From contig NZ_CP009747.1 of NCBI RefSeq assembly GCF_000800255.1, positions 3,162,001-3,226,000 on the forward strand: DNA of 64,000 nt, read 5' to 3'. Source of the stretch: Pseudomonas parafulva (GTDB taxonomy: Bacteria > Pseudomonadota > Gammaproteobacteria > Pseudomonadales > Pseudomonadaceae). The notes below the pieces were generated by a model. That model made no database searches and was not told the DNA's origin. It saw only the letters and a list, made by a program, of their open reading frames with translations. Position numbers and translations under genes: made by a program. Shown piece by piece: positions 13,385-23,864 of the stretch (positions are counted from its first letter, which is position 1; each line of letters opens with the position of its first letter).

Positions 13385-13467
13385 AAGCGGCAAGCGGCAA
13401 GCGGTAAGCGGCAAGAAAAAGCAGGGCGTGGGTGCCTGGACTATCGCTTGCCGCTTAAAGCTTGCAG
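13385..13467. repeat. Inverted 7-bp repeat array (AAGCGGC type), site 1
   Basis: Four tandem copies of AAGCGG(C/T) at 13385-13415 are followed by AAGAAAAAGCAGG and, about 30 bp further, by the inverted form GCTTGCCGCTTAAAGCTTGCAG (13446-13467). The two arms can pair. Same family as the elements at 14541, 22460/22918, 55030/55291 and 60867. Confidence 0.8.
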
Positions 13468-20548: not shown

Positions 20549-22450
20549 TTAAATAGCGCCGCGCTGGCGCAGTACCTCAAGCACCTGCTTCACGCCGTCC
20601 TCGACGCTGGTGCTCTGGGTATCGATCACCAAATCCGCATCCAGCGGCACATCGAACGGGAAGCTCTCGCCCGGGATGTTGTCGCCACCGGCAGCATACA
20701 GCCCCTGCGGGTCGCGCTCGCGGCAGACCAGCGGCGAGGCCTGCACGTAGACGGTGACCAGACGGTCCTTGCCGATCAGCGCCTTGGCCTGCTCACGGCC
20801 TTCGGCATCCGGGGCGACGAACGCCGCCAGGGTCAGCAGACCGGCTTCGTTGAACTGGCGCGCCACATGGGCGGCACGGCGCCAGTTCTCGGTACGTCCG
20901 GCGCGATCCTGCGGTAAGCCCTTGTTCAGGTCATGGCGCAGGTTCTGCCCGTCGAGCACGTACACCGCGCGGCCCATGTCGAACAGCTTGCGCTCCACGG
21001 CATAGGCCAGCGTGCTCTTGCCGGCGCCGGACAAGCCGCTGAACAGCACCGTCGCCGGCTGCTGGCCGAAGCGCAGGGCGCGCTCCTCGGTCGAGACATG
21101 CGCGGCCTTGCCGTGCTGACCGGCGCCGCCATGTGGCAGTACAGGCTCGGCGATGATCATGCCGGCACCGACGGTGCCATTGGTCAGGCGGTCGATGACG
21201 ATGAACGCCCCGGTGGTGCGATTGCTGTCGTAGCCGTCGAGGGCGATGGCAGCGTCCAGCGACACCTTGACCCGGCCGATCTCGTTCAGTTGCAGCGCGC
21301 TGGCGGCGCCCTTCTCCAACGTGTTCACATCGACCTTGTGGGCGATGCTGGCGATCGAGCCCGGCACATAGCTGGTGGCGCGCTTGATGTCGTACTTCTT
21401 GCCCGGCAGCATCGGCTCTTCGGCCATCCACACCAGCATGGCGTCGAACTGGTCGGCCACCTGCGGCACGTTGTCGGCATGCACCAGCAAGTCGCCACGG
21501 GAGATGTCGATCTCGTCTTCCATGGTCAGGGTCACGGCCTGGCCAGGCCCGGCGTTCTCCAGCTCACCTTCGTAGGTGACGATGGACTTGACCCGGCTGC
21601 TCTTGCCCGACGGCAGCACCACGATCTCGTCGCCCTTGTGCACCACGCCACTGGCCAGGGTGCCGGCGAAGCCACGGAAGTTCAGGTTTGGACGGTTGAC
21701 GTACTGCACTGGGAAGCGCAGGTCGGTGACATTGCGGTCGGCCGCCACTTCCACGGTTTCGAGGATTTCCATCAGCGCAGGGCCGGTGTACCACGGCGAA
21801 CGCTCGCTGCGGTTGACCACGTTGTCGCCCTTGAGCGCCGACATGGGCACGAAGTGCAGGCTGCTCGGCTTCAGGTCGATGGCTTCGGCGAACGCCAGGT
21901 AATCGGCCTTGATCGACTCGAACACCTGCTCGTCGAAGCCCTTGAGGTCCATCTTGTTGACCGCGACCACGATGTGCTTGATGCCCAGCAGCGAGGCAAT
22001 GTAGCTGTGGCGGCGGGTCTGGGTCTGCACGCCATAGCGGGCATCGACGAGGATGATCGCCAGGTCGCAGGTGGACGCACCGGTGGCCATGTTGCGGGTG
22101 TACTGCTCATGGCCGGGGGTGTCGGCGATGATGAACTTGCGCTTGGCAGTCGAGAAGTAGCGGTAGGCGACATCGATGGTGATGCCCTGCTCGCGCTCGG
22201 CCTGCAGGCCATCGACCAGCAGCGCCAGATCGACTTCCTCGCCGGTGGTGCCGGACTTCTTCGAGTCACGGGTGATGGCCTCGAGGTGGTCCTCGTAGAT
22301 CATCTTCGAATCGTGCAGCAGGCGCCCGATCAGGGTGCTCTTGCCGTCGTCGACGTTGCCGCAGGTGAGGAAACGCAGCAGTTCTTTGCGCTCGTGCTGA
22401 GCCAGGTAGGCGAGGATATCCTCGCTGATCAATTCGGATTGGTGACTCAT
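20549..22450 (-). CDS. cysNC: Bifunctional sulfate adenylyltransferase subunit 1 / adenylylsulfate kinase (CysNC)
   Basis: Sulfate activation. The N-terminal CysN half is an EF-Tu-like GTPase (G1 [10 protein letters not shown]3 [10 protein letters not shown]4 VNKMD) that drives ATP sulfurylase with CysD; the C-terminal CysC half (P-loop GLSGAGKST from about residue 472) phosphorylates APS to PAPS. 633 residues. I start at 22450 ([16 protein letters not shown]); the 10 upstream in-frame residues run into repeat sequence. A GGAG at 22465-22462, 11 nt before the ATG, is the only apparent ribosome binding site, and it lies in a repeat arm. The gene is separated from cysD by a four-helix-bundle gene. 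Confidence 0.97.
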
Positions 22451-22459
22451 TTCATTCGA

Positions 22460-22489
22460 GCTCCAAGCTGTAAGCGTCAAGCGGCAAGC
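22460..22489. repeat. Site 3 array, left arm (upstream of cysNC)
   Basis: AGCTCC-AAGCTGT-AAGCGTC-AAGCGGC-AAG, 7-bp units. It is about 80% identical to the reverse complement of the right arm at 22918-22947, so the two bracket the four-helix-bundle gene as an inverted pair. It contains the presumed cysNC ribosome binding site. Confidence 0.8.
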
Positions 22490-22503
22490 CTGTCGGCGTA
22501 CAA

Positions 22504-22845
22504 CTAGTTAGACATTCTGTTGATCAACCCACTCAGCATTCTGGAGAGCTCGCGGGTTTCATTAATCCAGCCGCTAGCCAGCCCAGCGTCGATGTAACCT
22601 ATCTCACCACCGATCATCAGCTGTGTACGCAACTCCCCGCAGGACGCTTTCGCAACGCTGAGATACCAAACCTTCTCTCTGCTCCCGCGCCGCTCCATGC
22701 CCTCGGCAATATTGGACGGGATGGAAAGTGCTGACCGCGTGACCTGATCCTTGAATCCATAATCACGACACCCAGCCAGTATCCGGTACAACTCAATGGC
22801 CAAACGCTTACTTCGTTGCCAAACTGCCAGCTTCTCAAAATCCAT
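22504..22845 (-). CDS. Four-helix-bundle protein of the 23S rRNA-intervening-sequence (S23/IVP) family
   Basis: 113-residue protein [20 protein letters not shown]..., with the family marks [51 protein letters not shown] and a C-terminal LSGLINRM. Members form pentameric four-helix bundles, are found in 23S rRNA intervening sequences and are relatives of Avd of diversity-generating retroelements; their own function is unclear. No reverse transcriptase is near. Base composition is visibly less GC-rich than the flanking cys genes, and the gene sits between cysD and cysNC inside inverted 7-bp repeat arms, so it looks like an inserted accessory gene. A start 12 codons further up is possible but lacks family similarity. 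Confidence 0.9.
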
Positions 22846-22917
22846 TACGAGCACTCCGAGCCGCCCGCAATACGGCGGCAATCCACAAGTCTCAAACGCT
22901 ACGCGTTCAGCTTCTGT

Positions 22918-22947
22918 CTTGCAGCTTGCCGCTTGTAACTTGAAGCT
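22918..22947. repeat. Site 3 array, right arm (cysD 3' end)
   Basis: CTTGCAG-CTTGCCG-CTTGTAA-CTTGAAGCT, inverted relative to the arm at 22460-22489. It ends on the first base of the cysD stop codon (on the plus-strand numbering), so it touches the coding region. Confidence 0.8.
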
Positions 22948-23864
22948 TAGAAATACCCTTGGCGTTTCTTGTCTTCCATGGAACCTGCGCCATCGTGGTC
23001 GATGACACGGCCCTGGCGTTCGGACGTGCGCGTCAGGAGCATTTCCTGAATGATGTCGGTGAGCGTCTCGGCTTCCGACTCGACAGCACCCGTCAGTGGG
23101 TAGCAGCCCAGGGTTCGGAAACGCACCTTCTTCTTGACGATGCGGGCTTTCTCTTCATCGGTCAGATGCTCGAGAATGCGCTCGTCGTCGATCATGATCA
23201 GGGTGCCGTTCTTCTCGATGACTTCGCGCTCGGCGGCGAAGTACAGCGGCACGATCGGGATGCCTTCGAGGTAGATGTACTGCCAGATGTCCAGCTCGGT
23301 CCAGTTCGACAATGGGAAGACGCGGATCGACTCGCCCTTGTTGACCTTGCCGTTGTAGACGTTCCACAGCTCCGGACGCTGGTTCTTCGGATCCCAGCGG
23401 TGCTTGCTGTCGCGGAACGAATACACGCGCTCCTTGGCCCGCGACTTCTCTTCGTCGCGGCGCGCACCGCCGAAGGCGGCGTCGAAGCCATGCTTGTCCA
23501 GCGCCTGCTTGAGGCCCTGGGTCTTCATGATGTCGGTGTGCTTGGCACTGCCGTGGGTGAAGGGGTTGATGCCCTGCGCCACACCCTCGGGGTTGACGTG
23601 GGTGATCAGCTCCAGGCCCATTTCCTCGACCATCTTGTCGCGGAAGCGGTACATCTCCTGGAATTTCCAGCGGGTGTCGACGTGCATCACCGGAAACGGC
23701 AGCTTGCCCGGGAAGAAGGCCTTGCGCGCCAGGTGCAGCATCACGGCGGAGTCCTTGCCGATCGAGTACAGCATCACCGGATTGTCGAACTCGGCGGCCA
23801 CCTCGCGGATGATGTGGATGCTTTCCGCCTCCAGCTGTTTCAAGTGCGTCAGTTTGTCGACCAT
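22947..23864 (-). CDS. cysD: Sulfate adenylyltransferase subunit 2 (CysD)
   Basis: PP-loop ATP pyrophosphatase subunit that forms APS from sulfate and ATP together with CysN. 305 residues; PP-loop [13 protein letters not shown] (34-46), the [15 protein letters not shown] loop and [14 protein letters not shown] near the C-terminus are all present. First gene of the sulfate-activation pair; the usual tight link to cysNC is broken by about 500 bp here. Confidence 0.98.

Follow-up and report, generated by a model that had tools for sequence, protein, structure and literature searches.

On either side of a RAYT gene lie inverted copies of a short, lineage-specific sequence, which is also dispersed in palindromic pairs; REPs and REPINs are the dependants of a RAYT. 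In the intervening sequence (IVS) of the Coxiella 23S rRNA, the available part of one report describes three tandem heptamers (GACAGAT) that precede an S23 ORF and vary in number by strain; according to the same text, RNase III excises this IVS in vitro, and the ORF is reported to be under reductive evolution (PMC4990558). Heptameric repeats have also been described in Xanthomonas (GGGAATC), Nostoc (GGGGATT), Calothrix, H. pylori (GTGATTA) and Beggiatoaceae (TAACTGA) (PMC4692102, PMC4679880). Xcc carries 70 convergent inverted heptamer pairs (PMC4692102, in part). In one survey, as far as its accessible text goes, in most genomes heptamers outnumbered the other classes of repeats of 5-11 nt, and polymerase slippage was proposed; the abstract, by MacGregor, states that no transfer mechanism was evident (PMC4679880). 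The terms S23, four helix and intervening are absent from the main texts of PMC4692102 and PMC4679880. Here we compare with these systems a gene inserted between cysD and cysNC in Pseudomonas parafulva. On balance, we consider it probable that this insert is one case of a widespread, RAYT/REP-like element of two parts, an IVP gene and its own inverted heptamer arrays.

The insert between cysD and cysNC

The window analysed here is a stretch of 64,000 nt from the P. parafulva genome, which is 5.09 Mb long and a single contig. An initial annotation of the window had recognised a lower-GC gene of the IVP family between cysD and cysNC, and had proposed that the inverted arms on either side of it pair as a stem in RNA. 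We found that the family assignment was borne out by three profiles, PF05635 (E 1.5e-28, 99.6 bits against a curated cut-off of 33.8, full length), NF008912 (E 3.7e-47) and TIGR02436 (E 8.5e-30, 103.2 bits against a cut-off of 24, full length). The GC content of the gene is 53.2%, compared with 60.3% for cysD and 64.8% for cysNC. The features of the locus, and the other AAGCNNC arrays of the window, are as follows.

22504..22845, minus strand: IVP (S23, four-helix-bundle) gene, 113 aa from ATG, with PF05635, NF008912 and TIGR02436 matches
22917..22948, minus strand: arm upstream of IVP (cysD side), an AAGCNNC array that reads towards IVP on the minus strand
22460..22489, plus strand: arm downstream of IVP (cysNC side), an AAGCNNC array that reads towards IVP on the plus strand
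Contig positions 3184472-3184489: AAGCNNC match in the cysNC-side arm, from the genome pattern search
22451..22946: whole element, 496 nt from the cysD stop to the cysNC start
22947..23864, minus strand: cysD, upstream neighbour (CysD match in 46/46 IVP loci)
20549..22450, minus strand: cysNC, downstream neighbour (CysNC match in 46/46 IVP loci)
13385..13402, plus strand: dispersed AAGCNNC array elsewhere in the window (contig 3175385-3175402)
14615..14653, minus strand: dispersed AAGCNNC array elsewhere in the window (contig 3176615-3176653)
55314..55359, minus strand: dispersed AAGCNNC array elsewhere in the window (contig 3217314-3217359)

The arms are indeed inverted copies of one another, but the initial annotation had set the second of them one base off and both of its counts one too high. 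In the register that it gave (22918-22947) only 5 of 30 positions are identical; the true partner of 22460-22489 is 22917-22946, which gives the best register, with 23 of 30 positions identical and 25 of 30 pairable when G-U is allowed. A second register one heptamer away (22924-22953, 22 of 30 identical) also fits, because the arms are arrays of the AAGCNNC heptamer. Of 1,017 positions spaced evenly over the window, 3 equalled or exceeded the local arm score of 15.0, and a repeat search found this pair to be the longest inverted repeat for 22000-23600.

An IVP ORF between inverted repeats is the layout of a 23S intervening sequence, a likeness that the initial annotation had drawn and to which the heptamers of the Coxiella IVS, as described in the available part of PMC4990558, can be added. 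The site, however, is the cysD/cysNC gap and not a 23S rRNA gene. The insert had been called a new setting for the family, which understates the matter: 0 of 52 IVP stretches contained a match to LSU rRNA (Rfam). A separate Rfam search of 22300-23100 returned a single 14.1-bit match, which we judged to be due to chance, and no rRNA match there.

The IVP protein is predicted by AlphaFold2 to consist of four helices (pLDDT 97.4). Foldseek placed this model close to XCC0516 (2GSC chains, TM 0.84-0.90), BT_0352 (2RLD, TM 0.79-0.84) and Avd (4DWL, TM 0.79, E 0.04), a protein that binds nucleic acid. PF05635 is described as Avd-like in the accessible part of PMC10053308, and the title of a reference in that paper gives 2GSC as an assembly of five bundles. 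The residues of XCC0516 gave no match in phage records; in five genomes from the order of G644, a genome sampled below, the best identity to XCC0516 was 58%. Across 40 members of the family, W10, S42, N46, A48, E49, G50, S69 and E72 do not vary (numbering starts at the valine that precedes the ATG). The median dN/dS was 0.105 for 118 pairs among 32 Pseudomonas IVP ORFs, 14 of the 46 copies having been dropped because, through the start rule or a broken frame, they yielded no ORF in the range of 105-125 codons. The Pseudomonas IVP gene is under purifying selection. PF05635 was the only profile match of the gene at E up to 0.001, and no Y1 (HUH) transposase domain was present; a copying enzyme was thus not found.

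Gene presence and array number in Pseudomonas

PF05635 was present in 46 of 398 genomes of the genus, the host genome included, and all 46 genes lie inside the cysD-cysNC gap, which at these loci is 351-499 nt long. AAGCNNC upstream and its inverted copy downstream, within 300 nt of the gene, were found at 44 of the 46; the remaining two loci (L065 and L068, in genomes G317 and G356) have another inverted pair that is not AAGCNNC. Close relatives with the gene and without arms, a possibility raised by the initial annotation, were therefore not found among the 46. For comparison, CysD was sought in 80 genomes that lack the IVP gene and found in 79, one of them with two copies, which gave 80 loci; this sample is not random, as it takes in every genome with at least 20 array hits (50) but just 30 from among the other 302 (CysD matched in 29). 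In 73 of these 80 loci the gap measures 1-16 nt. The other seven gaps, of 115-205 nt, retain a downstream arm and an IVP tail, and in five of them an upstream array is visible by eye. The presence and absence of an insert at one site, as the initial annotation had it, is what the 46 filled gaps, the short gaps and the scars display.

The IVP gene switches between present and absent no fewer than 34 times on a tree built from cysD+cysN of 125 genomes. The distances among IVP proteins track those of cysD-cysN (Mantel r 0.68; 0 of 2,000 permutations), so these data hold no sign of recent movement of this copy. In another gammaproteobacterial family, one locus (L207, 537-2144) has the order cysD-IVP-cysN with an IVP 60% identical; this order reflects either renewed use of the same gap or an old insertion.

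The best lead in the initial annotation was its hint of AAGCNNC arrays, which proved to be dispersed genome-wide. The pattern AAGCNNCAAGCNNCAAGC has 128 matches in the host genome (53 forward, 75 reverse), and the reversed-pattern control has 0. Of the 20 genome stretches with pattern matches that were read, most show convergent arrays about a short centre; by an eye count among the matches listed, seven pairs of arrays no more than 200 nt apart are convergent and no pair is divergent. The sequence just inside 32 dispersed arms (20 nt each) is more like the inner end of the 5' arm of the IVP element than shuffles are (mean 5.5, compared with 4.5, p 2e-4), with a lower value of 4.28 against the 3' inner end, which suggests a modest likeness to the 5' end of the element. 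Among individual genomes, the highest AAGCNNC count of the 398 (386) belongs to G356, the arms of whose IVP gene are not AAGCNNC; G347 (L109), G002 (L152) and G061 (L140) have 302, 148 and 121 matches, respectively, together with a clean gap and no PF05635.

Array counts differed strongly between genomes with and without the gene: the 46 IVP-bearing genomes had a median of 60 matches and a minimum of 13, whereas the 352 others had a median of 4, with 73 of them reaching 13 (Mann-Whitney p 2e-22, 398 genomes). Fifteen of the 20 genomes with at least 100 matches have an IVP gene. In PGLS with lambda 1, the slope was 0.47 log10 units (p 1.3e-6, 125 genomes), and at the best-fitting lambda of 0 the p value was 9e-7; the cysD+cysN tree used here held 46 IVP-bearing and 79 IVP-less genomes, the latter enriched for high counts, which works against the association. 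In nearest-neighbour pairs, the IVP-bearing genome had the higher count in 34 of 46 cases and not in 12 (Wilcoxon 1.3e-5). The state of the gene mattered as well, with median counts of 70.5 where it is intact (40 genomes), 27.5 where it is degenerate (6 genomes with an internal stop, or a partial or split match), 25 where a remnant gap is left (7) and 4 in the rest (345, of which 273 are IVP-less genomes whose gap was not read). From these results, we conclude that array number tracks the presence and intactness of the IVP gene and that the link survives correction for phylogeny; in Pseudomonas it is well supported.

These data bear on two other explanations of the arrays. The arms could act in cis only, as operators or hairpins that serve IVP autoregulation or mRNA stability, with the genome-wide arrays being unrelated and a common lineage effect. 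Arms that adjoin the gene and face inward would suit such a role, as would the purifying selection on IVP. We nevertheless consider this explanation quite unlikely: the association is kept both in PGLS and in sister comparisons, the inner sequence of dispersed arms resembles the 5' end of the element, and the gene has appeared or disappeared repeatedly on the tree. Alternatively, heptamer palindromes may arise in some other way, such as slippage, and IVP genes may merely land inside them. Consistent with this, 50 of the 352 IVP-less genomes have at least 20 array matches and no PF05635 match, and the cysD-cysNC gap is short and clean in 45 of them, so that arrays can exist or persist without the gene; the abundance of heptamers in the survey that proposed slippage, to the extent of its available text (PMC4679880), points the same way. 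At cysD-cysNC, however, the 73 short gaps leave no room for an array and the seven longer ones all bear an IVP scar; among the 80 gaps read, therefore, no palindrome without IVP was seen. Arrays are also fewer where IVP is broken or lost. Together with the heptamer units described below, these points make a preference for landing in ready-made palindromes unlikely.

Heptamer arms at other IVP loci

Beyond the 398 genomes, arms were called at a score of at least 14. A class-level sample contained PF05635 in 77 of 369 genomes, the host genome being one. Inverted arms were found at 25 of the 30 other class-level loci returned, whereas of 460 control positions in the same stretches 1 had them; among periods of 3-12, 7 was best for both arms at each of the 25 loci. 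Named genomes, from many phyla by their titles, had arms at 53 of 80 loci among the matches listed (control, 27 of 5,970); a period of 7 was best for 48 of the 5' arms and 44 of the 3' arms. When the sets were pooled, again among the matches listed, arms were present at 76 of 106 IVP loci versus 28 of 5,931 controls and 30 loci fell below the threshold. Four named loci that also belong to the Pseudomonas set were left out of the 106, which lie beyond the 398-genome set though not all outside the genus. L206 and L208, whose contigs are equally long and whose arms are the same, are apparently one locus and are both counted. Period 7 characterised at least one arm in 71 of the 76 loci with arms among the matches listed, and both arms in 67. 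Further IVP copies in the same genomes, outside G722, had arms in 11 of 16 cases.

Plasmid records gave 27 PF05635 matches; 16 were examined, and arms were found at 15 of them, as opposed to 7 of 276 controls. The period was 7 on the 5' arm in 13 of these loci and 8 in two (L361 and L369). Sites on plasmids include nrdB/nrdA, cas6/cas4 and cas10/cmr3, and the IVP gene of Nostoc edaphicum is antisense to nrdB and nrdA. Taken together, comparison of these sequences very well supports an anatomy in which the IVP gene lies between inward-facing, inverted, locus-specific heptamer arrays.

Several loci deserve mention in their own right. Cyanobacterial plasmid CRISPR-Cas operons hold IVP between inverted arrays at L360:1486-1854, L363:1489-1848 and L361:1483-1839 (cas6|cas4 twice, cas10|cmr3 once). 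tRNA genes lie within about 100 nt of IVP at L197:1370-1440, L203:1880-1950 and L206:1866-1936. In the 1.5-Mb genome G722 there are 11 PF05635 matches, of which 10 closely resemble one another; the four that were read (L343-L346) look like DGR cassettes by eye, with an Avd-like ORF after a repeated coding end and another ORF next. No heptamer arms were found at these four Avd-type copies (score 12), and within them ATTAACG arrays lie some hundred nt downstream.

The heptamer itself is a property of the locus. Arms match within a locus (score of at least 14) at 78 of 110 loci, compared with 255 of 11,990 cross-locus pairs, and in 48 cases, against one expected, the best match among the 110 is the locus's own 3' arm. 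Genome G521 has three IVPs and three units, with one arm scoring only 12.5. Among the matches listed, AG is present in 62 of 71 period-7 units (1.01 per 7 nt, versus 0.17 for CT), and the inward strand is richer in G than in C at 68 of 76 loci. At the level of sequence, then, we have shown that the unit differs between loci and agrees between the arms of one locus, usually takes the form nAGnnnn, and reads inward on both sides. Two published heptamers share this form, as TAACTGA is CAGTTAT on the other strand and GTGATTA rotates to TAGTGAT; GGGAATC and GGGGATT have it on neither strand. A unit tied to the individual locus, even among the three IVPs of G521, argues against the idea that IVP genes merely land in palindromes made by other means.

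Agreement between the arms and arrays dispersed elsewhere in a genome was more variable. Fixed 21-mers of three units were sought in 33 genomes with one mismatch allowed; patterns of a single heptamer miss degenerate arrays. The 21-mers of GAGTTCT, AGTGTTC and GGCAGTC were found in 2, 4 and 3 of the 33 genomes, respectively: GAGTTCT in G521 (72 matches) and G533 (5), AGTGTTC in G481 (33), G591 (24), G454 (13) and G473 (1), and GGCAGTC in G405 (7), G731 (6) and G521 (2). The dispersed unit agrees with the genome's own IVP arm in G591, G454, G521 and G731 and not in G481 or in G405, whose GGCAGTC array differs from its own arm unit; in G533, the tested heptamer was found only at its IVP. The four IVPs of G481 (L330-L332, L182) comprise two with arms of other units and two below the threshold, and its AGTGTTC array may be that of an IVP since lost or not seen. 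Blind searches for period 7 covered small samples, 780 kb from 6 genomes and 20 kb from one without IVP. Arrays related to the genome's own arm appeared in G519, G521 and G644, alongside other units (judged by eye), and no convincing dispersed array in the samples of G659, G533 and G760 (380 kb). The four plasmid samples gave 10 period-7 arrays, of which 3 agree with the unit of their own arm at 6/7 or better. These comparisons indicate that coupling is strong from arm to arm and, outside Pseudomonas, uneven from arm to dispersed array.

The same loci bear on the RNA stem of the initial annotation, in which the arms pair in the cysD-cysNC transcript and loop out IVP, with RNase III cutting the stem, the cysNC ribosome binding site being masked, or both. 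Folding, a check suggested by that annotation, gave the predicted result: the arms pair at the base of the 526-nt predicted transcript (z -3.3), a usual outcome for inverted repeats. In addition, a GGAG at 22461-22464 on the minus strand, the putative ribosome binding site 10 nt before the cysNC ATG, lies inside the complement of the cysNC-side arm, and the Coxiella IVS, which also carries heptamers, is cut out by RNase III in vitro in the part of PMC4990558 available. Selection on a sense RNA stem, however, would favour G-U over A-C mismatches between the arms, and we found 86 G-U versus 81 A-C at 78 loci, and 32 versus 30 at the 46 Pseudomonas loci, which are related and not independent. With no excess of G-U, selection on the RNA stem is left without support. 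Moreover, IVP can lie antisense to its flanking genes (the nrd locus of N. edaphicum), the arm rule holds at loci with unrelated neighbours, and a stem leaves the locus-specific units and the dispersed arrays unexplained. We therefore regard an RNA intervening sequence as improbable, and any RNA effect could be a side effect of the element. From the initial annotation as a whole, the IVP family, the insert, the likeness to an IVS and the array hint have held up, and selection on an RNA stem has not.

A probable two-part element and its relation to known systems

Our results favour an element made up of an IVP gene and its own inverted heptamer arrays. That the protein acts on the arrays, and that the element is mobile, we infer by analogy with RAYT and REP. 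The IVP protein, which has a fold in common with Avd and XCC0516, may recognise the hairpins of its own heptamer, whether in DNA, in single-stranded DNA or in nascent RNA. Together with host replication or repair enzymes, it would extend the arrays and seed copies elsewhere, and the dispersed palindromes would be dependants of one IVP gene, as REPs and REPINs are of a RAYT. Such an element might be tolerated in tight operon gaps because both flanking genes stay intact.

We further propose, more tentatively and as an idea that is plausible rather than probable, a pan-bacterial class of elements, so far unrecognised, whose autonomous members are the IVP (PF05635) genes. Each protein would be specific for one heptamer of its own, of the nAGnnnn type, and would cause inward-facing arrays to grow and spread; 23S IVSs and the orphan heptamer repeats of Xanthomonas, cyanobacteria, Beggiatoaceae and the Coxiella IVS would be products of this class. 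What would be new is the class, on the basis of anatomy and association, while the cysD-cysNC locus itself contains a known protein family. In open-access PMC, we found no paper that joins the PF05635 family outside rRNA to heptamer repeats, the nearest being the report on the Coxiella IVS (PMC4990558), which concerns that one case. Crystal structures of PF05635 proteins have been available since 2006-2007 (2GSC, 2RLD) under titles that call them hypothetical or of unknown function, and bacterial heptamer repeats have so far been described without a cause. If IVP explains the heptamer repeats, both questions can be tested using a 113-aa protein and a 30-nt oligonucleotide, and the IVSs of 23S rRNA would be one insertion site of a general element.

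Compared with known systems, the element differs from an insertion sequence or MITE in that no target-site duplication was seen by eye between filled and empty cysD-cysNC gaps. It shares a fold with the Avd protein of diversity-generating retroelements (TM and E values above), and differs from such a retroelement in its neighbours, which are cysD and cysNC, with no reverse transcriptase beside IVP. Like the published heptameric repeats, as the available texts describe them, its arrays are intergenic, dispersed and built of 7-nt units; unlike them, the array is here tied to an IVP gene. The 23S IVS likewise has an IVP ORF between terminal inverted repeats, and in Coxiella it begins with heptamers (PMC4990558, in part); here, in contrast, the setting is a protein-coding operon and purifying selection acts on IVP, whereas that text reports reductive evolution for the Coxiella ORF. 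Finally, the element departs from RAYT-REP systems in that IVP is without a Y1 transposase domain and the unit is a 7-nt tandem array rather than a fixed hairpin, and it resembles them in that, in Pseudomonas, the flanking repeat is dispersed in inverted pairs whose count is linked to the gene, a correspondence that is uneven in other genomes.
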